Shown: piece by piece, positions 1 to 36,837 of the stretch
Layout: every line of letters starts with the position of its first letter
Position numbering within the stretch: the stretch's first letter is position 1
Source of the DNA: a virus
Length of the DNA: 37,697 nt
Reading direction: 5' to 3' (one strand)
IMG/VR virus record: IMGVR_UViG_3300036823_000111
Coordinates: 1-37,697 of that record
Notes under the pieces: generated by a model
Database searches by the model: none
Told to the model about the DNA's origin: nothing
What the model saw: the letters and a program-made list of their open reading frames with translations, nothing else
Translations under genes and position numbers: made by a program

Positions 1-1694
1 AGCAGATCCCATGCTGTTGCGGCAGGGACGTTCTCGAAGCGAATATAGGGATTTGCATCACCACCTGCGACGCCGCGAAAACGCGCCGCCGCAAAGCTCG
101 CAATGTTGGTATCGAAATCCTGTCCGGCGCCGGGTGCTGACGGCCCGAGACGCTGCACAAAGTCATTGATCCCCGCCTCGACAATCTCCCGAATCGGAGC
201 GGTCAAAAGATAAGCCGAAGCGGGGTCTGTCGTCCCCGCATAGTTGCGATCCAGCGTGCCGGTGAAGAAGTCCGTAACCGTGAGGATGTAATTGGTTGCT
301 CCACCATCAAATGTGATCGTTGCCCGATTGTGCCAGTCATCCCAGACACCCCCGCTCGACACCGGGTCATAGATGTTCATGATGCCCGGACTGTGCGATG
401 CGTCGACTGAGTCGAGTTGGGCGCGCAGCACGGTTACGTGTGTCGCATCGGTCAGCGCAGTGACTTGAACGATCTCATTGTCGAGCGTATAGAATTTGCC
501 GACGACGTAATCATACGGCGAGGCTGCGACCTGCAGCAGCGTCGCAGTAGGCGTGCAGGAAGCCGCCAGATAGCCACCAATTATGAGCTGGATGGCAGCG
601 CTGCCGTTTGTGACGGCGACATGTCCGGTCGAAAAAGGAGACGCCCCGTAAATCGCTGGATCGTCAAAAGCAAACCCACTCGACGTCACCGTCACATTGT
701 CGCCAGACAGGAGCATATCCGACGTAGAATAACCACTCTCAAGACGGATCGTACAGGTGGCACGGATTTCGATCTCATGGTTCACGCCGCAGTTCCGGAG
801 CGTGATAGCACGACCGCTCCCCTCGTTTAATGCCCCCGTGTCCACCAGCAGGAACTTCCCAAAGCCAGCCTCTACCTGGCAGTTGTTAAGTTCAATCGGA
901 GAATGCAGGCCGCCGTGCGTCCCGTCCACGTAGAACCACGCGCACTCGTCGCCTGGATTCGGTCGAGTCAAAGATCCTGTCACGCCCAGGACGGTCAGGA
1001 GGCCGCCTATTCGGTCGATATGAATGCCCTTGGTAACTTCAGTGATTTGCCCGCCGATGATGTAGGAGCCCTGCCCGGAGTTCGCAGAGTTGAAACGGTA
1101 CCCCGTATGGCAGAGGGAAATCACGACGTCCTGAAACCAGGTGGAGTCCATTTGGAAGCCGGATAGAGTTGAGCCGATCTGGATCGCAATCCCATCCGCA
1201 GCAAAACCGCCTGGCCATGCCGGAGCGCCGCAGTACTCGATCACTAAATCCCGGAAGCTGTTGCCACTCGACACCGGCGTATTCGTGCTGTCGATCAGCA
1301 GGCCGACACACCCAGCCGTTTGGTTGCCGTGGAGGTGTAATCCTCTCAGAATCAATGATCTGGTGCCAAATGCACGCAGCATGGGCTTGTTGGGCGCGCC
1401 GCCCCAGATAAACTGCGTGCCAGTGCACGGGTCACCCAATCCGCTAATCTTGCCTTTGACGCCATAGACTTCCATGTTCGAACCCAGATCGAGGGTGTCG
1501 GTGAGGATGTAGCCGCTCGGCGCCGCGGGAAAAAAGATGCGATTACCCTTTGTCGCACAGGCAGAGACTGCCTGCTGGTAATTGACGGTGTAGTCCGTTG
1601 TCCCTGACTGCTTGATGTCGACGTCGAACGCCGATATCGACATCTGTTGGCCGAGTGCCTCGGCATATGAGATTGACGCTTGAGTAGTAGGCAT
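1..1694 (-). CDS. Tail spike with right-handed beta-helix-like region (partial, runs off left edge)
   Basis: The frame is open for 564 codons from ATG 1694 to the window edge with no stop. The first 60 residues resemble the head-binding part of spikes, followed by a segment of the pectate-lyase-like type (FFPAAPSGYILTDTLDLGSN, then LILRGLHLHGN) in which short hydrophobic stretches alternate with N, G and D as in parallel beta-helix coils. This is the usual architecture of a receptor-binding or glycan-degrading spike at the tail tip. It starts 4 bases after the preceding tail gene. No catalytic residues can be assigned, and the C-terminal part is missing. The family call is by pattern, not alignment. 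Confidence 0.7.
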   Translation of the reverse strand, partial: MPTTQASISYAEALGQQMSISAFDVDIKQSGTTDYTVNYQQAVSACATKGNRIFFPAAPSGYILTDTLDLGSNMEVYGVKGKISGLGDPCTGTQFIWGGAPNKPMLRAFGTRSLILRGLHLHGNQTAGCVGLLIDSTNTPVSSGNSFRDLVIEYCGAPAWPGGFAADGIAIQIGSTLSGFQMDSTWFQDVVISLCHTGYRFNSANSGQGSYIIGGQITEVTKGIHIDRIGGLLTVLGVTGSLTRPNPGDECAWFYVDGTHGGLHSPIELNNCQVEAGFGKFLLVDTGALNEGSGRAITLRNCGVNHEIEIRATCTIRLESGYSTSDMLLSGDNVTVTSSGFAFDDPAIYGASPFSTGHVAVTNGSAAIQLIIGGYLAASCTPTATLLQVAASPYDYVVGKFYTLDNEIVQVTALTDATHVTVLRAQLDSVDASHSPGIMNIYDPVSSGGVWDDWHNRATITFDGGATNYILTVTDFFTGTLDRNYAGTTDPASAYLLTAPIREIVEAGINDFVQRLGPSAPGAGQDFDTNIASFAAARFRGVAGGDANPYIRFENVPAATAWDL

Positions 1695-5387: not shown

Positions 5388-7756
5388 CCCAGCGGCACCC
5401 CCTGTGCGTTATGCGAGGCGTAGAGTGTTACGTCGTTGTTGTAAACGGCCTGGTTAATAATGTCCGCCAACTGCTGGCCGCCATTCATCCCGACGATAGG
5501 TCCCGAGATGTAAACGTGTACCGTTGGCTGTGGCGTAGTGCTTGAAGCTGCCCCTGTGGACGCGGCCGCGTCCGAGGCGCCACTCGCGGCCGCGGCCGTC
5601 GTCGCCGATGCGCTGGAGGCGTTCTGAGACGGCGCGATAGCCCTTCCGGCGAGGGCAGCCGCCCCGCCCACAGCAGCGAATATTCCAGCCGAGGTGAAAT
5701 CGAGGGCTGCATCCGCATAGTCGCCGAAAGCGAGGTCATAGAATCCCCAAGCGGCGGCCATCAGCGCCGCGGCGGCAGCCTGCCCGGCGAAGCTTTCGAG
5801 TACGGACGCCAGTGCGCTCCGCATTGCCTGCCCAATCGATTTTTCGTAAACGAAGGCCTGTGTGATGCTCTGCCCCATGGCTTGCACCATCGACTGGAAC
5901 GCTTTCTGCGCCATCTCGTTCAGCGCTTCGAGCGACATCTTTACCATCAGCAGCGACTGGTCGGCGCTCTGCTCCCATTGCTGGTAGAGCTGTGCGTTGC
6001 CGCGGATCATCTGGGCAAATCCGCTGCCAAATACCCCCTGCCATCCCTGCGAATTCAACAGTGTTGTCAGATCGTTCTGGTACTTCTTCGTGATTGCGGT
6101 CGTGATCGTTGCATATTGCTGCCGGATCGAAGCACGCTCAGCCTCGCTCTTTGCCGTCAGCAGCGACTTCTGCAGCTCAACGTCTGAATACTGGGCCAGG
6201 TCCTTTTGGTATTGCGCCGAGATCTTGTCCTGCCCGGTTGAAACACTGGCAACGACTGAATCAAGATGCTGCTGAAGCTTCCGGATCTCCTGCTCCCACG
6301 CGGTGGTTTGGGTGCGATCGATCTTTGCCAGGCCATCGGCAGTAATCTGCTCAATCTCAGCCCACTCCTCGTCGGTTAGCGCAGTTTTTTTCGCGAGACT
6401 GGCAGCCCAGGCGTTCTGCTGTTCGATGAACCTGCTGCGCTGCTGGTCGTAACTCTGGGCCTCATTCGTAGCCATCCGATCATGGATTTCGCGGTCTACC
6501 TCCACACGCGCTTCACCAGCCTTTTGCTGCTGGTAAGTGAACTCTTCCTGTACCTCGGCGCTCTTTGTGACAGCCTCGCCCCACGCCGTCAGCTCGGCCT
6601 GTTTGATTTTCTCCGTGGTCTGGGCAACCAATTGCCCTATGAGTGCGGGGATCTGAGCCAATGCGGCGGTTTGCTGCCGCACGGATGTCGATGTAATCGT
6701 GCCGGCCTTTTCGAGCTTTTTCAGCTCAGTCTGCGCCTTGGCACTTTCTTCCTGATAGCGGGCAACTTCGTTTGCCAGCTTGTCCCAGGCGGTTCCGTTG
6801 TCCGCGATCTTGGATTTCAGCGAGTCCAGGACACTGGTCAGACCGTAGTAACTTCCAGAGGCCTTTTCGGCGGCCTTCTCCGCTTGCTCGTTCTGTTTGA
6901 TTTGCGCTTGCGCGCCCTCTGCTATAAGTGCCTGGGATCGCCTTTCCTGGACTTCGAGGTCCACCTGGAAGGCGCTTAACTGCGCGTTGATCGCAACAAT
7001 ATCCTTGAGTGCCGCGTCACGCGCGGTCAGGAGCATCCCGGCGTCAGTTTCGTTCTGGGCCTGCTTTGCCGCCTCGACTGCCTGTTGAGCAGTCTGCAAC
7101 TCCAGATTGAGGCTCGCGATCATCACCTTGTCGGCTGTGATTTTGGTTCGCAGCAGTTTATCGGCTTCATCGACCGCAGCTGCGGGCTTGCCTATCGCCC
7201 GCGTCAGTGCCTCGGAATCGAGACGTTGCAGCTCCTCGCCGAGCTTTGCAATTTCTGTTTGCATCGCCTTCGCCGTCTCAATGACACGCTGCTCCGCCTG
7301 ATACACCGGATTCCATTGCTGGGCAAGCTCGTAAACCTTCTCGCCCATTTTCCCGATGATTTCAATAAATGCCAGTGCACCGACGATCGGAAAAATCGCC
7401 TGCATGGCCGGCCCGATCCCGAGCGTCGTCGCAACAAACCGCTCGACCGCCCGGATTCCGCCGCTACCTTCCAGCAACCGGATCGCGCCGCTGGTCGCCT
7501 GAATCTCGGAGACCGCATGCCCGTGTGCCGCCGCGAGTCTCTCCGTCGCGGCCGTCTGCGCTTCCTCGGCCTGCGTCGCCTCATTAAGCGCAGTCGCGAG
7601 TTGCTCCTGAGCGGCCGTTGCCGTCGACGCGAAGCCGGTGAAGTTGCTGGTAATGGCTTCGAGGTCCCCCGCCATAAAGGCGCGGAACTTCTCGATATTG
7701 GCCTGCGCCTCATCGGAGTTCGCGGAGATGTTAAACAGCAATTCGGCTGTATTCAT
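5384..7756 (-). CDS. Tape measure protein (790 aa)
   Basis: Long helical protein with A/Q/E/K-rich coiled coil from about residue 150 to 500, a hydrophobic segment near residues 115-137 (IGPAMQAIFPIVGALAFIEI) and another A/G-rich hydrophobic region near 660-705, then a beta C-terminus (TVHVYISGPIVGMNG). This is the classic pattern for a tape measure that sets tail length and is threaded through the tube. It follows the frameshifted tail chaperone with an ATGA overlap, as in most long-tailed phages. By the usual rule of about 0.15 nm per residue the tail would be roughly 120 nm (estimate). No lysozyme or peptidase motif was seen. Confidence 0.9.
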   Translation of the reverse strand: MNTAELLFNISANSDEAQANIEKFRAFMAGDLEAITSNFTGFASTATAAQEQLATALNEATQAEEAQTAATERLAAAHGHAVSEIQATSGAIRLLEGSGGIRAVERFVATTLGIGPAMQAIFPIVGALAFIEIIGKMGEKVYELAQQWNPVYQAEQRVIETAKAMQTEIAKLGEELQRLDSEALTRAIGKPAAAVDEADKLLRTKITADKVMIASLNLELQTAQQAVEAAKQAQNETDAGMLLTARDAALKDIVAINAQLSAFQVDLEVQERRSQALIAEGAQAQIKQNEQAEKAAEKASGSYYGLTSVLDSLKSKIADNGTAWDKLANEVARYQEESAKAQTELKKLEKAGTITSTSVRQQTAALAQIPALIGQLVAQTTEKIKQAELTAWGEAVTKSAEVQEEFTYQQQKAGEARVEVDREIHDRMATNEAQSYDQQRSRFIEQQNAWAASLAKKTALTDEEWAEIEQITADGLAKIDRTQTTAWEQEIRKLQQHLDSVVASVSTGQDKISAQYQKDLAQYSDVELQKSLLTAKSEAERASIRQQYATITTAITKKYQNDLTTLLNSQGWQGVFGSGFAQMIRGNAQLYQQWEQSADQSLLMVKMSLEALNEMAQKAFQSMVQAMGQSITQAFVYEKSIGQAMRSALASVLESFAGQAAAAALMAAAWGFYDLAFGDYADAALDFTSAGIFAAVGGAAALAGRAIAPSQNASSASATTAAAASGASDAAASTGAASSTTPQPTVHVYISGPIVGMNGGQQLADIINQAVYNNDVTLYASHNAQGVPLG

Positions 7757-8299
7757 CGTCGGTTCAGGATTTCCTCGGCCTCTGCTTCTTTGATTCGCTG
7801 CAGCACGCCGAAGCCAGCCAGATCGAAGTTAAGGGCGAGTACGGGATCCTCAATTGCGAGCAGATTTGACGGCCTTACGCGAAACTCTCGCGCGGCCATC
7901 ACGATGCTTTCCATTGCCGGACTGTGGACGAAAGGTGTCGAGGCGCGCCGCCTCTGACCCCCTCATTGCCCAGGCAAGAATGAAGTTTGTGTCCCCGTTC
8001 GGGATGTCGCGCGGATGGATCTGTCCGGCCTCCGGCCTCAGCGATATCGCCGGCTCGACGACGCAATAAACGAGCAGGTCTCGCAGGAATTCGGCGAAGG
8101 CCGCCACCTGCTCACCCGTCATTTCCGCCTGTTCCTCCTTCGAAACAGCCAGGCTCATTGGCAACATGCCGAAGCCTGCCAGCATCGACGGACCCGGCCG
8201 CCGTGCCTTAATCACCATGCCCGATGGCAGTTTGAGGTCGGAGGCTTCACCAGCCGCCGACTGGCGGGCCTTCTCCCGCCAGATTTGAGCGTTGTCCAT
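7753..8299 (-). CDS. Tail assembly chaperone, frameshifted long form (about 182 aa)
   Basis: Reading the 149-aa frame to the G5 run at 7962-7958 and slipping back two bases joins it to a second open frame ending at 7753. The extension adds 68 residues (after the slip: GQRRRASTPFVHSPAMESIV..., ending EAEAEEILNRR). The second frame is closed by TGA at 7965-7963 just upstream of the G run and is open all the way after it; the zero frame stops at 7850. The extension ends by ATGA on the tape measure start. This G/GT-like arrangement of two products is standard for tail chaperones, and Mu itself is, to my knowledge, a -2 case. Frame and stops are seen; the shift is inferred. Confidence 0.75.
7850..8299 (-). 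CDS. Tail assembly chaperone, short form (149 aa)
   Basis: Mostly helical 149-aa protein between tail tube and tape measure, the fixed position of the tail assembly chaperone (G-like). It contains a K/R-rich N-terminus (WREKARQSAAGEASDLKLPS), a central helix (TGEQVAAFAEFLRDLLVYCV) and ends in a basic tail (ARVSRKAVKSARN) that is lost in the frameshifted form. The start has GGAGA about 5 bases upstream. These proteins coat the tape measure during tail assembly and are absent from the virion. Confidence 0.75.
   Translation of the reverse strand: MDNAQIWREKARQSAAGEASDLKLPSGMVIKARRPGPSMLAGFGMLPMSLAVSKEEQAEMTGEQVAAFAEFLRDLLVYCVVEPAISLRPEAGQIHPRDIPNGDTNFILAWAMRGSEAARLDTFRPQSGNGKHRDGRARVSRKAVKSARN
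7957..7966 (-). other. Probable -2 ribosomal frameshift site in tail chaperone gene
   Basis: Minus-strand sequence ATGAGGGGGT. In the zero frame the codons are ATG AGG GGG. A glycyl-tRNA on GGG (7960-7958) can slip back two bases and re-pair fully with GGG (7962-7960), then read GGT, CAG, AGG. The target frame has a TGA immediately before the run, which bounds the slip to this point or later. A +1 shift would reach the same frame with one residue fewer. Confidence 0.65.
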
Positions 8300-8315
8300 G
8301 ATGTTCTCCGGAGAT

Positions 8316-8918
8316 CTACGTCAGCGTCTCGTAGTGCACGCCGATTTGCCGCCCGACCGTGCGCGCCAGATCCGCGAGCCCGGTGAACTGGACCTTGTGT
8401 GTGCTCTTCTTGCTCCGGCTCGCCATGATGGTCAGGCCGCCCTTCGAATTGCACTTGTAGAGAAGCGAAACAATATAAAGATTCGTACCTGTCCGCTTCG
8501 GCGTGATCGCCGCGATTGCGAACGATGGGACGATCGAGATGCCGCCGAAAGTCAACTGCTTGTAACCGGAGGCGGTGGAATAGACGCCGGTTGTCAGCGC
8601 ATTTTGCAGCAGATCCACCGATTGCTGACTCAGCTCGGCCTCGATCGATGCATCGAGTTCCTCCAAATAGTTGTCAACCGGCGCCTCGGCCTGGTCGACC
8701 TTGATATCGGCCGCCTTCACTTTTATGGTGAATGTGATGCCGCTCTCGGTGGTGCCGAGACAAACACTCGCAGGATGCGCGGTGGCATCCGGCGTCCCGT
8801 CAGTGGCGTTCAGTGTGAGCCGCTGCGTTGTGTCTGTCGGCGGCGTGCCGATAATCCACAAATCCCCCGGTCCCTGGTGGATTGCTGAAATGTCGTATCC
8901 CTTAGCTGTTCCGGCCAT
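8316..8918 (-). CDS. Major tail tube protein (200 aa)
   Basis: A beta-rich protein of 200 aa with the N-terminal part typical of siphophage tubes (start MAGTAKGYDISAIHQGPGDL, then TPPTDTTQRLTLN), a central D/E-rich loop and helix (YLEELDASIEAELS) and C-terminal strands. Size and place (tail terminator, small gene, tube, chaperone, tape measure) fit a lambda gpV/phi297-type tube. No tail sheath gene precedes it, which points to a non-contractile tail. It overlaps the small upstream gene by 17 bases. Confidence 0.75.
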   Translation of the reverse strand: MAGTAKGYDISAIHQGPGDLWIIGTPPTDTTQRLTLNATDGTPDATAHPASVCLGTTESGITFTIKVKAADIKVDQAEAPVDNYLEELDASIEAELSQQSVDLLQNALTTGVYSTASGYKQLTFGGISIVPSFAIAAITPKRTGTNLYIVSLLYKCNSKGGLTIMASRSKKSTHKVQFTGLADLARTVGRQIGVHYETLT

Positions 8919-9060
8919 CGGCTGTCTCCTCTTTCTCGACCACGGCCTGCAGCGCGTGGCGATACAACATAGCGGTTTCGGGTTTCAGCTCGACGATCGC
9001 GCCGTGCTGGTAAATTTCACCGTCAACATCGATCGGCAAAATGACTTTGTACTTATTCAT
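8902..9060 (-). CDS. Small tail protein (52 aa)
   Basis: ATG at 9060 with GAGGAG 6 bases upstream, stop TAA at 8902. The product starts MNKYKVILPIDVDGEIYQHG, a beta-hairpin-like segment of the kind in short phage proteins with an SH3-like fold, and ends in a charged tail (VVEKEETADG). It overlaps the terminator gene by ATGA and the tube gene by 17 bases. Such genes of about 50 aa are common before tail tube genes; function unknown. Confidence 0.7.
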   Translation of the reverse strand: MNKYKVILPIDVDGEIYQHGAIVELKPETAMLYRHALQAVVEKEETADGRNS

Positions 9061-9500
9061 CGCAACTCCTCAACTTCCACCTGACAATGGATGTCCGGCC
9101 ACATTGCAACGGACCCCTGCCCCTTCGTCCACATCGAGCCGTAATCGTGTTCTACGACATACACGTACTTCACAAAATCCGGCCAGCTCACGTCGAGCAG
9201 CTCCTCGATCGCGGCGTCGACCGCCTGTACGTATGCAAGCGCCCGCGCCGTCAGCTCTTCCGGATCCGCTCCCGTGAGCCCGAGCCGAATTGTGATCGCG
9301 TGAATCTGACTGCGTGTCGTACCTTCACCCTGATTCGGGAACGCGGTCCGTCCGGGCATCACCCATGCGCCCGGCGGGTTTACCAGAAGCCCCGTCCATG
9401 CCCGTCCGATGGTGGCGAATGGCGTCAGCCCATTGGGCATCGTCATCGTGTTCAGCAGCAGCGCAAAGCGATCGAGGATGGGTTTGATCAGTTCAGACAT
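9057..9500 (-). CDS. Tail terminator-like protein (147 aa)
   Basis: A 147-aa protein with an N-terminal helix (MSELIKPILDRFALLLNTM), a central strand pair with HAITIRLGLTG, a helix (ALAYVQAVDAAIEELL) and C-terminal strands ending in CQVEVEELR. This order matches small tail terminator proteins (lambda gpU/Mu gp37-like size and fold), which cap the tube and join it to the head. It follows the methyltransferases and begins the tail block, overlapping the m5C gene by one base. Confidence 0.65.
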   Translation of the reverse strand: MSELIKPILDRFALLLNTMTMPNGLTPFATIGRAWTGLLVNPPGAWVMPGRTAFPNQGEGTTRSQIHAITIRLGLTGADPEELTARALAYVQAVDAAIEELLDVSWPDFVKYVYVVEHDYGSMWTKGQGSVAMWPDIHCQVEVEELR

Positions 9501-10336
9501 CAGGCCACCGCCGTTCTAGCCGTTGCGAGCCACTCACAAGCGATAAAGGCCGAATAGGCCGGCGGAATTGCCTGCGACAACCACTTCATCGGCAGCCATG
9601 AGATACCCATCGCAGCTCGCGCATCATTGATTGAGAACGTCCGCCGTGAGAGATTTCGGATCTCATTCGTCTGCGGCGTAGCACCTGTAATCGTGATCGC
9701 CCGCCGATTGCTATTGGCGTGATCTCTGTTCCACACCCGGGGAGAACCATAGCCCACGACACTGATACAGGGGCGGATCTGATCCTGAGCCTTCCGCTTT
9801 TTCCATCGATCCGAATTAGAATCCAGACCATTACCCGTGACGGACAGGGACTCGCGATTCCCGTGTTTGCATTGTGGCCGCCGAGAGACAGGGAAACTCG
9901 TCTCGAAATAACGATGGCGGCGTAACTCGGCACTGCCGTCCGGCACATGCAAATCGAACATGCTTCCACAGAGCATCAGGAGATGACCGCTATCGCCAAG
10001 CGGCGCGCCGGGCACATTCTCAATGCAATAGGGAGTGCCGGCGGCAACCAGCAACGCGCGCGTAGCCGGAATCAGATTCGGATACTCCTTCCTGCCGTGC
10101 TGGGTCGTTTGCAGGTTTCGAAGTGATGTAAACGCCTGGCAGGGCGGACTTGCCCAAACAAAGTCGAACCCAGCCAAATCTACTGGCGGATTGGTTGCAT
10201 CGCCCTGAATGAAGCGAAACGGATACTTCGGCTGTGGCTTGTGGTCGATACCCGTCACATCAAACCCGGCGCGGTAGAGCCCCATGGACGCGCCGCCACC
10301 ACAACAGAACAGATCAAGCGCGCGAAGTCTCCTCAT
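9500..10336 (-). CDS. DNA (cytosine-5) methyltransferase (278 aa)
   Basis: The m5C motifs appear in order: motif I ALDLFCCGGGASMGLYRAG (near residue 6-24, SAM binding), motif IV SPPCQAFTS (near 88, catalytic Cys), motif VI ENVPGA (near 130), a motif VIII-like RRHRYFETSF (near 167), and a C-terminal motif IX/X region (AMGISWLPMKWLSQAIPPAY). At 278 aa it is short for the family. The target recognition region, between VIII and IX, is small. It overlaps the adjacent methyltransferase by ATGA, with no endonuclease gene nearby, so it is an orphan phage enzyme that likely protects phage DNA from host restriction or alters packaging or expression. Target sequence cannot be read off. Confidence 0.9.
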   Translation of the reverse strand: MRRLRALDLFCCGGGASMGLYRAGFDVTGIDHKPQPKYPFRFIQGDATNPPVDLAGFDFVWASPPCQAFTSLRNLQTTQHGRKEYPNLIPATRALLVAAGTPYCIENVPGAPLGDSGHLLMLCGSMFDLHVPDGSAELRRHRYFETSFPVSRRPQCKHGNRESLSVTGNGLDSNSDRWKKRKAQDQIRPCISVVGYGSPRVWNRDHANSNRRAITITGATPQTNEIRNLSRRTFSINDARAAMGISWLPMKWLSQAIPPAYSAFIACEWLATARTAVA

Positions 10337-11148
10337 CCCTGCGCCTCCCCGATCCGCCGCTGCGCGAGTGCAAATCGCGCCGCATCCATCTCCATGCCGA
10401 TGAACGCCCGTCCCGCGCGGACCGCCGCGATCCCCGCACTGCCCGTTCCCATGCAGTTATCGAGGACAACTTCGCCCTGGTTGCTGTACGTCCGGATCAG
10501 ATATTCGAGCAGCGCCACGGGTTTCTGACAGGGCAAGGCATTGCGCTCGCGATGAAAGGCGATGATTGATCCGGGAAATCCGGTACGCTGCTGTTCAACA
10601 CGCTTTCGTATCCGCCCGTAAACTTCGGAGACCGGCGCCGTTTTCCGCCGGCGGACTTTGCCGCCGGCACACGCCACCACGCCCTGCGGATTGTAGGTGG
10701 GCAGATGGCGATAGAAGACGAGCACATTCTCATGCCTGCGCATCGGCATGCGGTTGGCGTTCTGAAAGCCAGTCATCGCGCCTTTGTCCCAGATCCATTC
10801 GTACCGGAGTTTCAATCCTGCTGAAGCCCGCGCCGCGAGCTGCGTGGAGAATGGCTGCTGGGCGAACAGCAACGCTGCGCCGTTTTCTTTTAAAAGCCGC
10901 CCGTAAGCCTGCCAGAGCGGTTCAAACGGAATCGCCCGGTCCCAACTGCAGTCTGTAACCCCATACGGTAAATCGCAGAGAATAAGGTCGATGGTGCCCG
11001 GCCGCAAGTTCTCCATCAAACGAATACAGTCCCCTCGAAGCAACGACACCGCTGCCGCCATTACGACCAGCCCTTTCGTACAGGCGCCTGCAATCCGTCG
11101 CGGCCTTCCTGTCGATTGAGTCCGAGCGGAGTCGTTCCGTTCGCCCAT
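10333..11148 (-). CDS. DNA adenine-N6 or cytosine-N4 methyltransferase (271 aa)
   Basis: The catalytic motif IV reads DLPYG (variant of DPPY) and precedes motif I-like NCMGTGSAGIAAV near the C-terminus, the order of beta-class amino-methyltransferases. Between them are aromatic and basic segments (YEWIWDKGAMTGFQNANRMP; LVFYRHLPTYNP). ATG 11148 overlaps the gpG stop (TGATG) and is my start; an internal ATG at 11061 just before the SLLRGDC segment is the alternative and would still retain all motifs. The leucine in place of the first proline in DPPY is notable. Coupled to the m5C gene by ATGA; likely a joint orphan modification pair. Confidence 0.88.
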   Translation of the reverse strand: MGERNDSARTQSTGRPRRIAGACTKGLVVMAAAVSLLRGDCIRLMENLRPGTIDLILCDLPYGVTDCSWDRAIPFEPLWQAYGRLLKENGAALLFAQQPFSTQLAARASAGLKLRYEWIWDKGAMTGFQNANRMPMRRHENVLVFYRHLPTYNPQGVVACAGGKVRRRKTAPVSEVYGRIRKRVEQQRTGFPGSIIAFHRERNALPCQKPVALLEYLIRTYSNQGEVVLDNCMGTGSAGIAAVRAGRAFIGMEMDAARFALAQRRIGEAQG

Positions 11149-11789
11149 CACGCGCGTGCCCCTATGCGCGGAGACACGCGCTTGTAACCCGCCGGCGCAT
11201 GATCCGCACGCCGCACCCGGCTCTCCAGCGACCGCCGCGGCGGAATTCCGGCGCCGCCGCCAGAGCGCGCGCTCAGCGCCGCGGCCTGTATCGGCGTCAG
11301 CCCGGCCCGGAACCCCACCTGTGTCGCAATCTGCACCAGATAGCTCTGCAGGTGCCGCATCACACCGGTCTTGAATGCCGCGGTCAACTGGATTGGCGGC
11401 CGCCGCGGCAACCGTGTCCGCGGGTCGATCGACTGGTGATAGATCGCATAGGGGATTCGCGTCCCCAGCGTCAGCAACTTGCGCCCCTCGATCTTCACCG
11501 CGTTCGGATCGCTCGGCGATGTCAGCGATCGCTCCAGATCGCCGGTCCGCTGCAGAATCGGCATCCCCGGATAGTGGGCTTCCTTCCAGCCCGCATACTC
11601 CGGAGAAAGCGCCTGCCACGGCTCGCCGCCCTCCGCGCCCTCGGACGCGAACTGCGCTTTCTCTTCGGCATAGAAGTCATCCTCGATCACAGGCCAAATT
11701 GGGCGGTAGTCGGACACGCCGTCCGCAAACCGCCCGATCCCGCGATCGAGTTGCACTTCACCCGCTATGTCGAGCTTGAATCGGAACAT
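11148..11789 (-). CDS. Virion morphogenesis protein, Mu gpG-like (213 aa)
   Basis: Resembles the phage virion morphogenesis family (Mu gpG, tail completion): the segment EPWQALSPEYAGWKEAHYPG, then LQRTGDLERSLTS, then GTRIPYAIYHQ, in the correct order and spacing. The C-terminal 60 residues are basic and G/R-rich, longer than the core family. In Mu-type phages this protein acts in joining head and tail. Here it is separated from the tail genes by two methyltransferase genes. Confidence 0.8.
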   Translation of the reverse strand: MFRFKLDIAGEVQLDRGIGRFADGVSDYRPIWPVIEDDFYAEEKAQFASEGAEGGEPWQALSPEYAGWKEAHYPGMPILQRTGDLERSLTSPSDPNAVKIEGRKLLTLGTRIPYAIYHQSIDPRTRLPRRPPIQLTAAFKTGVMRHLQSYLVQIATQVGFRAGLTPIQAAALSARSGGGAGIPPRRSLESRVRRADHAPAGYKRVSPRIGARA

Positions 11790-11874: not shown

Positions 11875-12429
11875 TTACTGTGGACTGGCCCGCGCCATCA
11901 CGTTCTGCGCCTTTATGCTGCTCGCCAGATGCAGATTGTGAAAGGCAATCGATGTAAAAAACGCGGCCGACGCTCCAGAGGAAACGATACTCGCGATATC
12001 CGAATGCACGTCGTCTTTGTGCATGCGGTGGATAGCCCAGGTACCAGCGAAACCGCTGGCCGCGACAACCGATTTGTATGTCCAGAACTTCGCCTGGGAA
12101 AACTGCTGTTCGCCGGCGACGTTGTGGAGAAAGAGCGCGTTACTCTCAACGATGCACGGGCTACAACCGTAACCGTGCTTTCGCAGCCAGGCTGGCGTCT
12201 GAACGACCGCGACTTCCGAGCTGTAGCCATCGGCGCCCAGCGATGCCATCGCGGCGAGCGCCTCGGCGACGTAAACCAGCTTGTGCATCTTCGTTGCATC
12301 GGAGTGCACGAGAACCATCGGGTTGATCGTGACGCCGAAGTTTGCCGCCCGCGCGGGCGGACCGGATCCGATCAGGCAAAGACACATGCCCAATAGAGCG
12401 ATCGCGGAAACTATTTCTCGTAAGTTCAC
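11875..12429 (-). CDS. Exported or membrane protein of the head-tail block (184 aa)
   Basis: GTG start at 12429 with GAGGAGA about 10 bases upstream, chosen because it begins a clear signal peptide (MNLREIVSAIALLGMCLCLI, then AxA-type cleavage near PPARAAN). The rest holds moderately hydrophobic segments around residues 60-75 and 120-165 (VVAASGFAGTWAIHRMHK; SSGASAAFFTSIAFHNLHLA) and two cysteines in the phrase YGCSPCIVES. No family recognised. An exported protein in a virion operon could act in lysis, superinfection exclusion or envelope passage; this is speculation. A larger upstream open frame is an antisense artefact and was not used. Confidence 0.6.
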   Translation of the reverse strand: MNLREIVSAIALLGMCLCLIGSGPPARAANFGVTINPMVLVHSDATKMHKLVYVAEALAAMASLGADGYSSEVAVVQTPAWLRKHGYGCSPCIVESNALFLHNVAGEQQFSQAKFWTYKSVVAASGFAGTWAIHRMHKDDVHSDIASIVSSGASAAFFTSIAFHNLHLASSIKAQNVMARASPQ

Positions 12430-12470
12430 TTTTTTGCTTCTCCTCTCAAAATTGGATTCGTCTCGGGCTC

Positions 12471-14983: not shown

Positions 14984-16387
14984 CTACTCACCCCCTTTTT
15001 CGACCAACCGCAGCAGCTCGGTGCGCTGCCGTTCGATGTCGGGATTGTCCCGCGCGACGCGCTTCAGCGCCTCGCTCGGTGAAACCTTGTCCTTTTCCGC
15101 GCGGGTTGTTGCCATCTCACTCAACCGGAGGTCGAGTTTCTGGAGTTCGGTCTTGGTCTTCCCCTCGGCGCCCGTGCCGGCGATCCCATGTTCCGTGAGA
15201 TCCACCTGCGGTTTCATTGTGGCGACGATGCCGCGGAAGCTCTCGATGTCGCTCAGCGCGAGCTTTTCGAAATGCTCCCGTTGCGCCGGCAGTACGATGC
15301 CTTTAGTTACCGCCGCCTGCACTTCGCTCAGCGCCAGCCGTTCCGCATCGGCCGCACGAATCACAGCGAACGATACGACCGCGTCATTACTCAGCGACGA
15401 CAAGTCCAGCCTGCCCTTCCCGTCACGCTTCACTTCCGAAAGCTGGATCACCTTCGGACCCTGGTGGGTGTGCTCTGACGCGTTGAGACCTGTGATCTCA
15501 TCCTTGTCGCACTGCGGGCACAGCATCTGGGTCTTCGGATGTTCCGAGCACATGATTTTTTCTTTTGCCACTCGCTCGTTTTCTCCCTTCGTTTCCGACC
15601 ATGCAGCATCCGAGAGCCGGATGGCTGGCATTCCATCGAGGAACGGCGTGTTAGTCAGCGCGTAACTCGTGAGAGTCAGACCCTGCTGATCGCCGTTGCT
15701 CTTGTCTCGCGCGCCCCAGTTGAGCGCGGGAGATCCATACTTGTATTCACGGGCGTCGATCATCTGCCTCGCCCGCTCGTTAAAATTCGCCGTACCCCAC
15801 ACGATGCCTGCCGCGTCCGGTTTCGCCTCGATCGAGGTGATCCAGCCGGCCGCCGGCACCGGGCCGCCATTCGCGACCTCCGGAGCCTCGGACGCATGCT
15901 CGTAATCGATTACCACCTCACCGTTGCCTCTCTTGCCGAAATTGTCGGCGAGGCTGGCGACGTCATCTGCAGTGATCGAAAACTTCAGCTTGCCTTTGTA
16001 GAATGTGCCGAGCTTCGCGATGGGGATTCGTGTCTGGCCGTTTTCCGTAAGAACAAGCGAGCCCAGAAAAATAACAAATTGCGGGCCTTCAGATAGCCGC
16101 ACACCAGCCGGCATCTCGTCATCCGCCACACCGAGCTTCTGGTACGCGGCGCGGATCCGTGCCTTCACCCGCGCCAGATCCGCAGCGGGAATGTCGGCTT
16201 TCTCCCCGCGGAATCCGCCGGGCGAGAGCGCGGCCGCGGTGGCGCCGAGCTGCTCGCGTGTGGCCTTCGCGTCCAGATCGGCCCACAGCCGGAGCTTCCA
16301 CGTCGACGGATCGGCCGCATCCGGCACATAGGCGTATGCCGCTGCCGGGAACTCGATACCGTTGTCAGTTTTGATGGCTTCAGACAT
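14984..16387 (-). CDS. Prohead protease/scaffold, Mu gpI-like (467 aa)
   Basis: Residues 10-95 form a separate helical domain common at the front of such proteins (YVPDAADPSTWKLRLWADLD). Residues 100-255 are the Mu I-type serine protease: VVIDYEHASE with His164, YGSPALNW with Ser219, and TSYALTNTPFLDG. A Cys/His segment follows (Cys280, Cys290, Cys293 in CSEHPKTQMLCPQCDKD), which looks like a small zinc site and is unusual here. The last 120 residues, rich in K/E/R/L, are probably the scaffold tail released on maturation (as Mu gpZ). ATG at 16387. Unlike Mu no separate internal scaffold start is obvious. Confidence 0.85.
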   Translation of the reverse strand: MSEAIKTDNGIEFPAAAYAYVPDAADPSTWKLRLWADLDAKATREQLGATAAALSPGGFRGEKADIPAADLARVKARIRAAYQKLGVADDEMPAGVRLSEGPQFVIFLGSLVLTENGQTRIPIAKLGTFYKGKLKFSITADDVASLADNFGKRGNGEVVIDYEHASEAPEVANGGPVPAAGWITSIEAKPDAAGIVWGTANFNERARQMIDAREYKYGSPALNWGARDKSNGDQQGLTLTSYALTNTPFLDGMPAIRLSDAAWSETKGENERVAKEKIMCSEHPKTQMLCPQCDKDEITGLNASEHTHQGPKVIQLSEVKRDGKGRLDLSSLSNDAVVSFAVIRAADAERLALSEVQAAVTKGIVLPAQREHFEKLALSDIESFRGIVATMKPQVDLTEHGIAGTGAEGKTKTELQKLDLRLSEMATTRAEKDKVSPSEALKRVARDNPDIERQRTELLRLVEKGGE

Positions 16388-16414
16388 TTACTTTTTCGCT
16401 CTCATTGCGCCCGC

Positions 16415-17302
16415 TTACTGCGCGATCATTGGAAAAACGGGAGATGTCCACTGAAAAAACAGCGGCCCAAACAGCTCCGTTGTCGATGAAGTGGAGAACT
16501 CGTTATTGCCGATCCGACTGTAGCCGCAGTTGCCGATTGCTGGGTTGAGCTTGCCCTCTACGGTGCTCCCGATTTGCGCACCGATGGCACTGCCAGCACC
16601 GGCGGCGTAGAGATTAAGCTTGGCGAGGGGGCAACTACTCGTATGCGGCAGCGGGTCAAGCTGGCATATGGCGTCCGTGACCGGCGTCGAAGATGCCCAG
16701 AGTGTATACCAGACGCGCTCTGGAGGCGTTATTCCGGTGATCTGTCCTGAGTGGACGGTACCTGACGCATCGCTTTCGATATTGGCAAAATACGGCACGC
16801 CATCGTTGATTTGGTACATCGCGTATTTGCCAGTTCCGTCGAAAAGCCCCAGGTCGTCGTAGATCTGAAACAAGCTTGTCGGCTCGGTGAGCGTAATCCA
16901 TCCCGACGAGCCGCACACAGGATGCCCCGCAGGAATACCCATCTGGATAGTGCTTCCGCCACCCCCGGAGTGGTCGTACGCAAAAGCCTGTGTTGAAGTG
17001 GAGGCAGGGTATGTCGTATCGCCGATTACCGTCACTGAGCCGGGTAGCCCTGAGACCTGCCCCGCGTGAAATGTCATCGGAGGTGAGTTGTTGATACTCC
17101 AACCGCTATAGGTGCCGTGTGTGGCGGTTCCAAGATTCGTGGTCGTTACCGGCGCACCGACTGCGGTTCCGTTCCCGTCAATAAACACGTCCACGGATCC
17201 GAGAGACAGGGACGCCGATCCCTGCGATATAAGCAGTTGCTGGACGCTGCCAGCGTGCGCAAGCGCCGCCGAAGCGAGTAGACAAAAGATAAGCGCTTTC
17301 AT
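16415..17302 (-). CDS. Secreted protein, first of exported cassette by map order (295 aa)
   Basis: Clear Sec signal peptide: MKALIFCLLASAALAHAGS with charged start, hydrophobic core and AHA/AGS cleavage region. The mature part is beta-rich, S/T/G-rich, with phrases LGSVDVFIDGNGTAVG, YTLWASSTPV and several cysteines that could pair after export (CGSS, CQLDPL, SCPLAK, CGYS). It abuts the preceding gene (stop and start adjacent) and precedes the protease by 27 bases. No family recognised. It is third in transcription order of a three-gene set of signal-peptide genes inside the head operon. Confidence 0.7.
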   Translation of the reverse strand: MKALIFCLLASAALAHAGSVQQLLISQGSASLSLGSVDVFIDGNGTAVGAPVTTTNLGTATHGTYSGWSINNSPPMTFHAGQVSGLPGSVTVIGDTTYPASTSTQAFAYDHSGGGGSTIQMGIPAGHPVCGSSGWITLTEPTSLFQIYDDLGLFDGTGKYAMYQINDGVPYFANIESDASGTVHSGQITGITPPERVWYTLWASSTPVTDAICQLDPLPHTSSCPLAKLNLYAAGAGSAIGAQIGSTVEGKLNPAIGNCGYSRIGNNEFSTSSTTELFGPLFFQWTSPVFPMIAQ

Positions 17303-18103
17303 CTATGTCAACCCCGCGCCGTTGATCATCCAGCGGTTTCCAGGCATTAGGCACGCCGTGGCTATCCCGCTCGCCGCCAGTGTCCGCGAGCCCGTGGTTC
17401 CCGCGCCGGCGAGTACAAGTGTGTCGCTCGTAGCGATAGTGAGCACGCCAGCCGAAGTATCGTTCACAAACGTGATGCAGGCGTTGACTGGGTACGGCAC
17501 ATTCGTATGGCTATCGATGGTCCATGTGCGCGCCGTCGTGTCGGTGCTGGGGTGGAAAAGAAACGTGTTGGCGTCGGCAAGCACCGTCGTGTAAGCCGCG
17601 GCAATGGAGTGGCTCGCGGGCGTCGGAATCCAGCCAGCGGCAATCGTTCCACCACCGCCCGCCTTTGGAATCGCGTTCGCTGCCGGGGCCACCGTCGCTA
17701 TCTCGTCGGATCCGCCGTTCTGGTGTGTCGAGGCGTGCGCGGTGGGCGTCCGCGCGTTTGTGAACCGCGAATCATCCCCCGCGGCGACGGTATCAGTACC
17801 CGTGCCGACGTCGAGCACAGCCGCGCCACGGAGGCCGAGATTTGTCCGCGCAGTGGCGACATTCCCGAGATCGCTGAGATTATTCGCCGGTGTCAAAAAC
17901 TGCGGAATACTAGTAAGTTTTCCCCAGGCGAAACTCGTGAGCCATGTCGGATTCGAATAGGTGCTGTTGATATTCACCCCGAGGCCGAGGCTGGTGTTCA
18001 TGGCAGCGCGGAACGCCGGAAACGTCTGGTTGTCAATCGATGGAAGCTGCGCCCATCCTGCGCTGCAGGCGGCGAGACCGAGAACTATGAAGTTCAATCG
18101 CAT
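17303..18103 (-). CDS. Fibre-like protein with signal peptide (266 aa)
   Basis: Start ATG 18103 with GAGGAG about 5 bases upstream; a signal peptide follows (MRLNFIVLGLAACSAGWAQ, cleavage after WAQ-type end). The mature part carries typical tail-fibre phrases: NLSDLGNVATARTNLGL, then DTVAAGDDSRFTNARTP, then HQNGGSDEI. The last 100 residues match a phage fibre knob-like pattern (FLFHPSTDTTARTWTIDSH, LTIATSDTLVLAGAGTTGSR). A Sec signal on a fibre protein is unexpected since fibres normally assemble in the cytoplasm. It lies 7 bases after its upstream neighbour. An upstream in-frame ATG at 18166 would add 21 residues and bury the signal; it is rejected. Confidence 0.75.
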   Translation of the reverse strand: MRLNFIVLGLAACSAGWAQLPSIDNQTFPAFRAAMNTSLGLGVNINSTYSNPTWLTSFAWGKLTSIPQFLTPANNLSDLGNVATARTNLGLRGAAVLDVGTGTDTVAAGDDSRFTNARTPTAHASTHQNGGSDEIATVAPAANAIPKAGGGGTIAAGWIPTPASHSIAAAYTTVLADANTFLFHPSTDTTARTWTIDSHTNVPYPVNACITFVNDTSAGVLTIATSDTLVLAGAGTTGSRTLAASGIATACLMPGNRWMINGAGLT

Positions 18104-18110
18104 AAGCTCC

Positions 18111-18758
18111 TCAGTTGCTGTCGAACAAACCCTCGGCCGCGTCGAACAGGCCCGTAGTGCTGTCAAACGATGATCCCGAGCATGCGGCCCACCCCGTCAC
18201 TCCATCCACAGCTATCCAGCAATACCTTCCCGACGAAGGGGGAACTGTTATGCCTGTACCGTCCACACATCCGGTTGTCACCCCGCCGACTGGCGTCCCA
18301 ATCACCTGCCCGGCCGGGCACGGCGGACCAATCTGGGACGGATTCACCGACGCCACCATCGGCAGCGGCGCGTTAATGCGGGCCGCGCCGATAGTGACCC
18401 TCGACGCCGTGCTCACATACCAGGTCTCGTTCCACCTGGCGGATCCCAGCGCATCGTGGTGGTCATATACGACGGCATAGGTGGTGTTCGATGGTGTTGC
18501 TGTATCGTTTGGCTCAAGGCAGATCGAGACCACACCCTTCGCCACATTCAACACGATCGGGATCTTCCCGAATGGCGTGCCATCCAACGCCGCCATCGCC
18601 ACTGGGGCAGAGACAGTAACTGTACCCGAGAGAGCGCGGGAAACGCCCGTCGCGCCGCCTGGCGCGTTCACCGTGCCCTGCACCAGGGTCAAGCCATCAG
18701 GGCACGATTGCGCAAATACCGGCGCACAGAAAATGAGGGTCAGCAGCAGCTTCCTCAT
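18111..18758 (-). CDS. Secreted Cys-containing protein (215 aa)
   Basis: ATG 18758 overlaps the portal stop (ATGA) and starts a signal peptide MRKLLLTLIFCAPVFAQS. The mature protein is beta-rich with SCPDGLTLVQGTVNAPGG near the start, a middle segment (YAVVYDHHDALGSARWNETW) that resembles fibre or adhesin-type strands, then Cys-rich phrases (PPCPAGQVIG, TTGCVDGTG, YCWIAVDGV) and repeats of STTGLFDAAEGLFDSN at the end. Cysteines suit an exported protein. First gene of the exported set in transcription order; coupled to portal translation, so produced at the same time as the virion. Confidence 0.7.
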   Translation of the reverse strand: MRKLLLTLIFCAPVFAQSCPDGLTLVQGTVNAPGGATGVSRALSGTVTVSAPVAMAALDGTPFGKIPIVLNVAKGVVSICLEPNDTATPSNTTYAVVYDHHDALGSARWNETWYVSTASRVTIGAARINAPLPMVASVNPSQIGPPCPAGQVIGTPVGGVTTGCVDGTGITVPPSSGRYCWIAVDGVTGWAACSGSSFDSTTGLFDAAEGLFDSN

Positions 18759-20866
18759 GCGGCCGCCTTTGCTTCGTCGCCGAAAATATAAACCAGCACA
18801 CAGCGGCACTTATCGCCGCCGTCGCAGTCGGGATTCGGCACATCCGGCACATCGTCCGGGGTGTCGCCTTCCTGGCCATCCGCACCGCTGCAGGTGTCGC
18901 AAGTGTTCGTGTCGAGCAGCGCACTGTACTGCACTGACGAAATCTCATCCGCATACTGCTCGTAGCCGTCATTGCGCCCAGCGGCAAAAGCTTCGCTGGC
19001 ACCCTTCGCGGCCGCGTTATCGATCCAGCCGTCGCTCTGATCGTCGAGCGTCTCGCCGGCGTCGATGATCATCTGACCCGCGGTCTTATCTGCCGGGCGG
19101 CGCTTGAGGTCAAGGACCACATTCGCCGCCCGTTGCTGCAGGTTGTTCGTGTATTCGCTGACTACGCCATCTGCGTAGACACCCAGCGGATCACGCTTTT
19201 CCGCCGCGCGAATGGCGGCGGCGCTGGACGGCTTCGCGCCCGCGAGTTGCTTCGAGCGTTCGGCCTCCACGGTGTGGAGTCCATAACTGCTGACCCCTTC
19301 AAGGATGCCTTCAATTTTCGCGACCAGCTTTTCGTCCGGAGCGACGGACACACGGTGCGCATTCCGCACCGGTGTATTCATGAGCCGCTGGATGATGTAC
19401 GCCTGCACCCGAGGCCGCGCCTCGCGCAACGCCGCGGCGACGTCATCACGGCCCTTATCGAGCGCCGATGCCATCTCGCTCAGTGCCATAAACTTCTCAG
19501 CTCCGCGCGGCGCCCGCTTCGGTTTGAAAACCTCACTGAGCGTGCCTACGTCGCCTGATGGAGCAGCGCCGCTTCCGCCGCCCGCAGGCCGCGGACGGGC
19601 TTTGCCGCGCGGCGGCGCGCCAAATTTCGTGCGGCACCAGTCTTCGAGCTCGTCATCCGGCTGGACGATGTTCACGCCGGCGGATGCCAGATCTTTCAGC
19701 GCGGAGACGACGTCCTCGAACTTCATCGAGATGATCTGCTGTGGAATCAACCTCGGGTAATGGATGACGCCAGCGAAGTTGTAGTCCACCAGCCGCTTGA
19801 TGGTGGTCTCGCTGATCACGCGCGCGATCTGATTCGCCGTCGCCTGCAGCCCGATATAGAAGAAATCGGACATCGTCTGACCCAACGCGCGGTTACCGCT
19901 GGCCTTGCCCTGGCCGAAGTTAATGAAGCTGGCAAGCGCCGCCTGCGAAATCATGCTGTTGTGGTGGTCGATCGCATCTTTCGGCGAGTGGACCGTGCCC
20001 GTCACACCAGTCAGCGAAAACTTCCAGAGCGGCGGCAGCAGAATGGATGTTTTTTCGTTGGCGGATAACGCCTGTAGCCAGTCCGTTGCTGCTTTGCGGT
20101 CTTCCACGCTCGCACCGGCGGCCATCTCAATATTTGGGACGCCCATACCGTTGCGCTCGCACGCAATCGCCTCCACCTTGTACAAATTGCTTTTGATGTA
20201 CCAGTGCTGGTAAGCCGGCCTCAGCAGCGACTGGCCCGTGAAGTTCGCGCCTTCCTGCCGAAAGGTGAACAGTGACAGCTTCTCCACCGGCACTTGCGTC
20301 GTGAGGTATTGGCCGCCACGATAGCCCATCTGTTCCAGCGCGATGAGGTCGTCGCCATTCGCTTCGGTGATCCAGCGGTAGAAAGTAAGGGGCAGCCGCG
20401 CCGCGCATTTCTTCAACCGGACGTTGTTGCCGTCGATATAGTAAACGTCTTCGTGCGCGGCACAGCCGAAATCCAGCATCAACGATGCGTTCTCGATGAT
20501 GCCGTCGAGGTCCAGCTCTTCGAGCAGGCAGGACTTCACCAGCTCCGTTGCCTTCTTCTCAACGGGCGACGCCTGTTTTGGCTCCTGAATGGCCCACTCC
20601 GCGCCGCGGATCGGCAGCTTGCACGCGTTGAGCGTCGCGATTACCTGGCCGTCGCTACGTCGCATCCGCTCGTAATGCGCGATTGCCGAAAGCCCTGTCA
20701 GCTCCGGGTTATACTCGCCCAGTTCGCGGAGGAAACCGCCAAATATCGGCGTACCTGTCGCACCCAGCTCGGCAACATCCACGCGCGACTGCGCGCCCGG
20801 AGCTTTGACGACATCCGGCGTGGCAACCGGAGAAAGCGAACCGATATTGAGCGAGGTAAACGCCAC
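18755..20866 (-). CDS. Portal protein (DUF935/Mu gp29-like) fused to MuF-type C-terminus (703 aa)
   Basis: GTG start at 20866. Residues 1-about 410 are the portal of Mu gp29 type: EYNPELTGLSAIAHYERMRR, then ACKLPIRGAEWAIQEPKQAS, GCAAHEDVYYIDGNNVRLKK and LLRPAYQHWYIKSNLYKVEA. A G/P-rich linker follows (about 420-440). The last 250 residues are helical, ending in the Cys-rich signature of MuF/SPP1 gp7 minor head proteins: TNTCDTCSGADGQEG and GGDKCRCVLVYIFGDE. In Mu the portal and F (gp30) are separate genes, so this is a fusion, and no separate MuF gene is present in the window. The portal forms the packaging and ejection vertex. Confidence 0.85.
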   Translation of the reverse strand: MAFTSLNIGSLSPVATPDVVKAPGAQSRVDVAELGATGTPIFGGFLRELGEYNPELTGLSAIAHYERMRRSDGQVIATLNACKLPIRGAEWAIQEPKQASPVEKKATELVKSCLLEELDLDGIIENASLMLDFGCAAHEDVYYIDGNNVRLKKCAARLPLTFYRWITEANGDDLIALEQMGYRGGQYLTTQVPVEKLSLFTFRQEGANFTGQSLLRPAYQHWYIKSNLYKVEAIACERNGMGVPNIEMAAGASVEDRKAATDWLQALSANEKTSILLPPLWKFSLTGVTGTVHSPKDAIDHHNSMISQAALASFINFGQGKASGNRALGQTMSDFFYIGLQATANQIARVISETTIKRLVDYNFAGVIHYPRLIPQQIISMKFEDVVSALKDLASAGVNIVQPDDELEDWCRTKFGAPPRGKARPRPAGGGSGAAPSGDVGTLSEVFKPKRAPRGAEKFMALSEMASALDKGRDDVAAALREARPRVQAYIIQRLMNTPVRNAHRVSVAPDEKLVAKIEGILEGVSSYGLHTVEAERSKQLAGAKPSSAAAIRAAEKRDPLGVYADGVVSEYTNNLQQRAANVVLDLKRRPADKTAGQMIIDAGETLDDQSDGWIDNAAAKGASEAFAAGRNDGYEQYADEISSVQYSALLDTNTCDTCSGADGQEGDTPDDVPDVPNPDCDGGDKCRCVLVYIFGDEAKAAA

Positions 20867-34869: not shown

Positions 34870-35295
34870 TTGGATTCTACGGTGGTCCGCAGATTACGTC
34901 ACGCGCTTCGCATGAGCCAGCAGCAACTCGCAACGGAACTCGGCCTGTCTGTCGCGTCGATCCGCGCATACGAAGCGGGCCAAAAAGTTAGCGAAGGATC
35001 GCTGGAAAAGCTGAAATCATTGGCTGCCAGAAAGATGCTTCCCGACTTCGCCATCGAGCTCGACGGAAGAGAATTCAAGGTCCGGGCCGTTTACGAACCA
35101 GGTAAAAAGGTGCGCATGCCGCGCGTGCCGGCAGGCGAGGATTTGGGGGACGTGATGCATCGGATGCTCGACGAGGTCATTGAGAGTGGACAGCCGGAGA
35201 TCATTGTGGCTGTCGAATCCGTGCTGCAGGTTTGCAGAATAGCGCTAACTTCCAACAATAGCGCTAGCAAAACCGGAAAATCCGGCGGAAAATAG
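34870..35295 (+). CDS. XRE-family helix-turn-helix repressor (141 aa)
   Basis: TTG start 34870 with GGAGGA 7 bases upstream. N-terminal HTH_3 domain: VRRLRHALRMSQQQLATELG, then LSVASIRAYEAGQKVSEGSL, followed by a C-terminal part (FKVRAVYEPGKKVRMPRVPA; MLDEVIESGQPEIIVAVESV) of unknown fold, no S24 peptidase motif, so no RecA-type self-cleavage is expected. Plus strand against all phage genes to its left; it opens the lysogeny unit. Two further TAGCGCTA octamers lie in its 3' end. Lysogeny repressor is the most likely role. Confidence 0.85.
   Translation: MDSTVVRRLRHALRMSQQQLATELGLSVASIRAYEAGQKVSEGSLEKLKSLAARKMLPDFAIELDGREFKVRAVYEPGKKVRMPRVPAGEDLGDVMHRMLDEVIESGQPEIIVAVESVLQVCRIALTSNNSASKTGKSGGK
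35240..35266 (+). promoter_or_regulatory. Distal pair of TAGCGCTA octamers inside repressor 3' end
   Basis: TAGCGCTA occurs at 35240-35247 and 35259-35266, start-to-start 19 bp, within the last codons of the repressor gene. They match the octamers of the operator about 430 bp away. No other copy of the octamer was noticed in the window by eye. They may be secondary sites for a looped or cooperative complex, or an autoregulatory site for the genes downstream. Confidence 0.6.
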
Positions 35296-36312: not shown

Positions 36313-36792
36313 CTAGAGGGGGATGCCCTGATCTCGAATGAACCCGGCGTTCGCGTCGGAGTGAAGACAGCCGACTGCGTGCCGGTACTTCTGGTGGATC
36401 CCACGCTTCGGGCGGTTGCGGCAATTCACGCAGGGTGGCGCGGAACCGCGCAAAATATTGCCGCCGCGGCAGTGCGGGAAATGGCGGCCCGCTGGAACGC
36501 GCGTCCGGAAAATTTACGGGCGGCCATTGGTCCTTCCATCGGAGTCTGCTGCTACGAGGTCGGGCCGGAAGTCGCCCGCCACTTTGGGAAATGGAATACA
36601 GAAATGGAACATGTGCACGAACACGTACACCTCGATCTCCCCTCGGTCAACGAAAGGCAGCTCCGGGCCCTCGGCGTGAACGACATCTGGAAATCAGTTG
36701 AGTGCACATTCTGCCGAGCCGACAAATTCTTTTCGTTCCGGCGCGAGCGCGAGGCCGCTGGACGACTAATGTCGTTCGTCGGCTTGCGCTAA
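36313..36792 (+). pseudogene. pgeF: 3' part of pgeF (laccase-domain purine nucleoside/polyphenol oxidase), cut off by prophage
   Basis: From EGDALISNEP on, the frame matches the C-terminal 60% of the PgeF/YfiH family: VGVKTADCVPVLLVD (catalytic Cys), AVAAIHAGWRGTAQNI (His ligand), AAIGPSIGVCCYEVG, ending RADKFFSFRREREAAG and MSFVGLR. About 100 N-terminal residues, including the conserved VHG region, are missing; an in-frame TAA lies at 36310-36312, directly before the homology starts. The missing part is expected left of the window beyond the other prophage end. The remaining frame has a GTG at 36361 but would lack the first domain, so it is probably inactive. Confidence 0.8.
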
Positions 36793-36837
36793 CGCACACG
36801 AGTTTCGAACGTAATTTGGGTAACACCGGAAACACAT

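Follow-up and report, generated by a model that had tools for sequence, protein, structure and literature searches.

We identified three consecutive genes, P0003, P0002 and P0001, whose products all carry predicted Sec-type signal peptides and which lie within the head operon of a Mu-like prophage. Read from the sequence, the trio is probably an accessory fibre or spike module, produced late alongside the virion genes and sent out through the Sec pathway. Relatives lend independent support to export: a signal peptide is found in 7 of 19 carriers of the P0002 terminal domain, a cysteine pair is present in five of those seven domains and in none of the 12 signal-less ones, and exported partner genes are adjacent. 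The window, that is, the whole stretch of DNA that was analysed, is the complete IMG/VR record IMGVR_UViG_3300036823_000111 (37,697 bases).

Results

Genomic context of the trio

The trio occupies 16415-18758 on the minus strand, flanked by the portal gene on one side and the head maturation protease gene on the other (Table 1), which is where the sequence-only reading had placed three consecutive genes. The hallmarks of a Mu-like phage are present, namely a Mu-type portal, protease I and a DDE transposase, the last being a 705-aa candidate whose rve and DDE_2 matches are weak and below the curated cut-offs. Other window genes encode a terminase and a capsid protein of phrog_1005. In the order of portal, protease and major capsid genes the window resembles the Mu head operon (portal, F, G, protease I, T). 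In Mu, G stands where the window has three predicted-exported genes, and a G-type family was not recognised among them with Pfam or PHROG.

The gene order and coupled starts described earlier were all seen. The start of P0003 overlaps the portal stop (ATGA), P0002 starts 7 nt past P0003 with GGAG ahead of its ATG, and the P0001 start directly abuts the P0002 stop (TAGATG). A longer frame for P0002 opens at TTG 18166; we favour ATG 18103 because the ribosome site and the signal belong to it. No promoter- or terminator-like sites were found within the trio stretch, and there was no sigma-70-like site in 16300-19000, where the sigma-70 consensus may not suit the promoter type of the host. This embedding in the late structural operon with coupled starts upholds the claim that the trio is synthesised together with the head genes. 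Given the embedding, the coupled starts and the lack of a promoter-like site of its own, expression of the trio in the lysogen would not be expected.

Table 1. Positions of the trio, its parts and the flanking genes in the window
Feature	Coordinates	Strand	Evidence
Portal, Mu-type, apparently fused to Mu-F-like minor head part at the C-terminal end (residues 623-691)	18755..20866	-	Portal_Mu E 6.4e-44
P0003, 215 aa: signal and beta-rich, Cys-containing part, 6 Cys in mature part	18111..18758	-	
P0003 signal peptide, residues 1-16, MRKLLLTLIFCAPVFA followed by QS	18711..18758	-	score 5.54
P0002, 266 aa: signal, fibre N-terminal segment, NLSDL...TARTNLGL phrase and gp9-type terminal domain	17303..18103	-	
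P0002 signal peptide, residues 1-18, MRLNFIVLGLAACSAGWA followed by Q, internal lipobox-like LAAC	18050..18103	-	score 4.29
P0002 N-terminal fibre segment SIDNQTFPAFRAAMNTSL, directly after cleavage site	17945..18049	-	alignment to L004
P0002 fibre phrase NLSDLGNVATARTNLGL, residues 75-91	17831..17881	-	9zd7, PHROG and phage record matches
P0002 terminal 'knob' domain, residues 161-266 (last 106)	17306..17623	-	AlphaFold pLDDT 88.6
P0001, 295 aa: signal, QQLLISQ segment and beta-rich part, 4 Cys in mature part	16415..17302	-	
P0001 signal peptide, residues 1-17, MKALIFCLLASAALAHA followed by GS	17252..17302	-	score 5.6
Mu-like head maturation protease	14984..16387	-	Mu-like_Pro E 1.4e-32

At one end of the record, 36,361-37,300 holds two bacterial genes: a pgeF-type gene of which only the 3' portion is present (Cu-oxidase_4, E 2.7e-51, profile positions 93-237 only) and, on the opposite strand, a DksA-like gene. 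We therefore read the record as a piece of a prophage with host flank, and the pgeF-type gene is probably the insertion site. The flank spans 36318-37697. Between this flank and an HTH repressor-like gene at 34870-35295, a small protein is encoded at 35304-35798 on the plus strand; its signal resembles that of a lipoprotein (..SICTAC followed by APS), which makes it a candidate lysogeny-expressed surface lipoprotein. The opposite record end falls inside a beta-helix-like protein (1-1694, minus strand), which is signal-less, has the look of a beta-helix tailspike and gave no Pfam match. Two neighbouring DNA methyltransferase genes lie within the structural region (9500-11619, minus strand), and a frame at 11875-12440 on the same strand opens with a signal- or membrane-type sequence (NLREIVSAIALLGMCLCLIGSGPPARA), has more hydrophobic stretches and matches no family.

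Signal peptides

Signals were scored with a home-made rule that combines n-region charge, h-region hydrophobicity and the -3/-1 rule, with a threshold of 4.2; it favours a positive n-region, a hydrophobic core free of charge and small residues at -3/-1. All three trio proteins scored above it (Table 1), in agreement with the Sec-type signals first proposed for them, while the threshold was reached by 0 of the 28 other window genes and by 0.42% of 6,860 decoy windows. P0002 has the lowest-scoring signal of the three, close to the threshold. This signal contains a lipobox-like LAAC, so cleavage by either SPase I or SPase II is possible and P0002 could be a lipoprotein.

P0002 is a fibre-type chain

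The fibre phrase noted earlier in the middle gene, NLSDLGNVATARTNLGL, is present and is of a kind shared by annotated tail fibres. Its matches are the gp92 short tail fibre of PDB entry 9zd7 (E 3.1e-12), tail and tail fibre families in PHROG (best 1.4e-06), and minor tail proteins from phages of Gordonia and Streptomyces. No Pfam family was found for P0002 at E 1, the C-terminal S74 included. The segment that follows the cleavage site, SIDNQTFPAFRAAMNTSL, has a counterpart, TIDNQTFPAFRSKLNESL, which begins at residue 8 of a fibre without a signal in another phage, L004; the two align with 53% identity over 32 aa and a score of 82 against 47 for the best of 500 shuffles. Since this segment opens the signal-less fibre, the predicted signal peptide of P0002 sits ahead of a normal fibre start. 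Judged by these alignments and by its terminal fold, P0002 is a real fibre-type protein, and because it bears a predicted signal peptide we label it an exported fibre-type chain rather than an ordinary tail fibre.

The C-terminus that had been called knob-like is indeed a confidently folded terminal domain, but its fold is that of a connector or spike and not of a typical receptor-binding tip. In VIA-align the model matched the Pa223 capsid spike (9ny6_C; Z 12.8, 95 aligned, rmsd 1.9), and it gave Z 10.7 to CBA120 TSP4 and Z 9.2 to T4 gp9 (1qex); for this reason we prefer connector or spike domain to 'knob'. Nothing in the sequence or the terminal-domain fold indicates receptor binding by P0002. 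Non-phage entries with the same fold, 4dny (StcE) and 6o38 (a chaperone-substrate complex), are both secreted proteins, and the common fold is no proof of function.

P0001 and P0003

P0001 is 77% identical over its full length to the second gene of a gene pair in another phage, L005 (see below). No relatives of P0001 were found in phage records, and AlphaFold gave no usable fold for it (pLDDT 28). The C-terminus of P0003, FDSTTGLFDAAEGLFDSN, resembles a phage tail-protein phrase; P0003 has no family match and no relatives in viral contigs or phage records. The Cys-rich mature parts ascribed to all three proteins hold for P0003 and P0001, but P0002 has only two cysteines.

A recurring exported module in unrelated phages

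A DNA pattern for the P0002 terminal domain found 20 viral loci and two genomic loci, with 19 distinct carriers. Signal peptides are present in seven of these (the window, L005, L009, L018, L026, L028 and L030), all of them uncultivated contigs, and absent from 12 (L008, L010, L011, L013, L014, L016, L017, L019, L021, L022, L023 and L035). The phage records MW202483 and PQ492660 contain a distant copy of the domain that is signal-less in both. On a tree of the domain, from which the Cys columns were left out, the signal-bearing rows fall in three places, which forces at least two changes; L030 groups with L018 and L028.

A gene pair recurs in L005, an unrelated phage that encodes a head-tail adaptor and an internal virion protein: there the P0002 terminal domain directly follows a signal peptide, and the P0001 homologue comes next. 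Both the P0001 pair and the terminal domain give a dN/dS of 0.13 at a dS of 1.0-1.3, so the genes shared with the window are under selection. The signal of the L005 P0001 homologue has diverged yet is intact at a dS of about 1.3, which argues that the trio signals are not due to chance. Independent relatives likewise retain the n-h-c structure and the AxA-type site, often with Q or G next, despite divergence.

Of the seven signal-bearing carriers, six (the window, L005, L009, L018, L026 and L028) were examined for the gene directly downstream, and in each of them it too bears a signal. A QxxLxSQ-like segment begins this second protein in the window, L005, L009 and L018, and a looser version does so in L028; the remainder of the chain varies except between the window and L005 (77%) and between L018 and L028 (41%). 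A third signal-bearing gene is found in L009, L018, L028 and perhaps L026. The third genes of L018 (G005:C1:5112-7574) and L028 (G007:C1:6200-7888) are homologous, with 35% identity, and have a common C-terminal tail, GGTTSGxxKISGxVVxR. Third genes gave no match against Pfam, also at E 10, or against PDB by sequence, and we do not claim a glycoside hydrolase identity for them. The exported 1004-aa module protein of L009 (about 6183-9197, plus strand) contains a CGSCH cytochrome-c-type motif, which is odd for a phage. The L028 phage encodes a second signal-bearing fibre-like protein apart from the module (G007:C1:23824-25203).

The carriers range in GC content from 46 to 63% and differ in their portal and capsid families; therefore the module moves between phages. 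In the signal-bearing carriers examined, structural genes surround it. A trio between portal and protease was found in no other phage, the modules of the relatives lying elsewhere in the structural region, and a search of IMG/VR with the portal found no near relatives of the whole phage. Among 84,980 bacterial and archaeal genomes, the strict domain pattern gave only two matches, in Variovorax and Afipia, both signal-less; the Variovorax copy is complete (L035). The pattern NITTTSCT gave seven new loci, of which two lacked a matching frame and a third had just a 20-aa frame. Fibres of other families also bear signals, in L054 (from 5166), L056 and L058 (1411-2550), so the class of exported fibres is wider than the P0002 terminal domain. 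The fibre-like proteins of L054 and L058 are of the GNSTA..R..RAE.VT.ILDRAL..STRG type.

Cysteines in signal-bearing and signal-less proteins

Cys209 and Cys251 of P0002 occupy paired columns of the terminal domain that are found only in exported relatives. The window, L005, L018, L026 and L028 have the pair, which is missing from all 12 signal-less domains (Fisher p 0.0018); L009 and L030 are exported without it, and the L030 carrier has a Cys count of 2. The Cys share per residue is higher in exported than in signal-less carriers (p 0.0003). An even number of cysteines occurs in 18 of 20 signal-bearing proteins that contain Cys, compared with 61 of 108 other genes (p 0.003), a parity that is often even in signal-less carriers too. 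Plain Cys density in signal-bearing proteins against all other open reading frames is borderline (p 0.053) on a noisy frame set, and the comparison among homologues is the better test. These statistics come from few and partly related sequences. The Cys pattern fits folding or residence in an oxidising compartment and is evidence independent of the signal.

Discussion

The features of the trio suggest the following sequence of events. Late transcription with the head genes would yield the trio proteins while virions are being built. The predicted signals would direct them across the inner membrane to the periplasm and be cleaved, disulfides would form there, and the folded proteins would be set free at lysis. 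From the sequence evidence we consider this chain as a whole, from late synthesis through export and periplasmic disulfides to release at lysis, somewhat better than an even bet. With less certainty, the proteins may then work outside the cell, either by attaching to released virions as added appendages or as free factors that bind or act on glycans. Joining released virions is favoured by the retained fibre N-terminal segment of P0002 and by the structural-gene location. Since virions are put together in the cytoplasm and it is there that fibre chains normally serve them, it is hard to see how a fibre, once exported, could return to the virion before the cell lyses. The broader proposal that some tailed phages build part of the virion outside the cytoplasm, by Sec export of fibre or spike proteins, periplasmic oxidative folding and mounting at or after lysis, would add an extracytoplasmic step to the assembly of tailed phages; it is one that we regard as rather doubtful.

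The alternative that survives best, and to which we give a sizeable minority of the export case, is that the exported proteins stay off the virion as secreted or cell-surface factors that bind or degrade glycans and have borrowed fibre domains. It is consistent with the weak Laminin_G_3/lectin match of the exported L009 partner (L009_g2), with the large third genes lacking a family match in L009, L018 and L028, and with the occurrence of the P0002 terminal fold in secreted StcE and in 6o38. Both the window (the beta-helix-like protein at 1-1694) and L009 encode a signal-less candidate main adhesin, so the exported proteins look accessory. Against the off-virion role, P0002 retains a segment that opens a virion-type fibre in signal-less phages, and no enzyme family was recognised.

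It is improbable, in our view, that the N-termini do not function as signals and are instead hydrophobic ends of cytoplasmic virion proteins that, for example, touch membranes or are bound to scaffold. The prediction was made by a rule-based test, with P0002 near its threshold; on the other side stand the n-h-c structure and AxA-type site that independent relatives conserve, and the Cys pair and raised Cys content of the signal-bearing set. Equally slim is the chance that the trio is foreign cargo (a 'moron') from a bacterial chromosome, unrelated to phage function. The module does travel between unrelated phages as a cassette, and signal-bearing, phage-fibre-like bacterial adhesins are known in the MAT proteins of Bdellovibrio (PMC10769870), but the strict pattern gave only two signal-less matches in the bacterial and archaeal genomes, and every signal-bearing carrier is a viral contig, with structural genes around the module in those examined. 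Least probable of all is the role first proposed in the sequence-only reading, that of a decoy or superinfection-exclusion factor that coats the cell and blocks receptors against competing phages: export signals are present and exported proteins among phage tail genes are known, such as lambda Lom (PMC12309495), yet the late-operon embedding with coupled starts, the failure to find a promoter-like site of its own, the connector or spike type of the P0002 terminal domain and the lack of an apparent outer-membrane anchor, save for the ambiguous P0002 lipobox, all speak against it.

The preferred reading, a late and exported accessory fibre module, can be set beside several known systems. Tailed-phage fibre and spike proteins with a T4 gp9/gp10-type domain are taken to lack signal peptides and to be assembled in the cytoplasm. 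P0002 resembles the Pa223 capsid spike (9ny6), CBA120 TSP4 and T4 gp9 in its terminal fold (Z 9-13) and fibre-type phrases, and differs from them in its predicted signal peptide and Cys pair. Among published systems the mosaic adhesive trimer (MAT) superfamily of Bdellovibrio bacteriovorus comes nearest; its members are phage-fibre-like adhesins that carry signal peptides and act outside the cytoplasm, and its definition includes a conserved beta-rich domain of ~130 aa right after the signal; 13 of 21 carry S74 domains (PMC10769870). Likened by the description of MAT only, the trio is similar in having a phage-fibre-like chain after a signal peptide; however, MAT genes are bacterial, whereas the trio is phage-encoded in a head operon and S74 was not found in it. 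Like lambda Lom, a signal-bearing protein encoded among tail genes and made in the lysogen (PMC12309495), the trio is an instance of signal-bearing genes among the structural genes of a temperate phage. Unlike Lom, which is an outer-membrane barrel, its proteins are fibre-like and their genes are coupled to late genes. In open-licence papers we found no description of exported fibres or fibre modules in tailed phages.

The fibres of tailed phages are usually taken to be virion parts of the cytoplasm. Our analysis suggests that the trio is one case of a wider class of exported fibre-type proteins in several unrelated environmental phages. Their genes are easily annotated as 'hypothetical' or 'tail fibre' with the signal missed. 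The recurrence of export signals and matching Cys pairs in mobile, coupled cassettes suggests that phages also deploy fibres beyond the membrane, and it lets one ask whether such fibres are mounted on virions once the cell has lysed or instead work on the host's surroundings.
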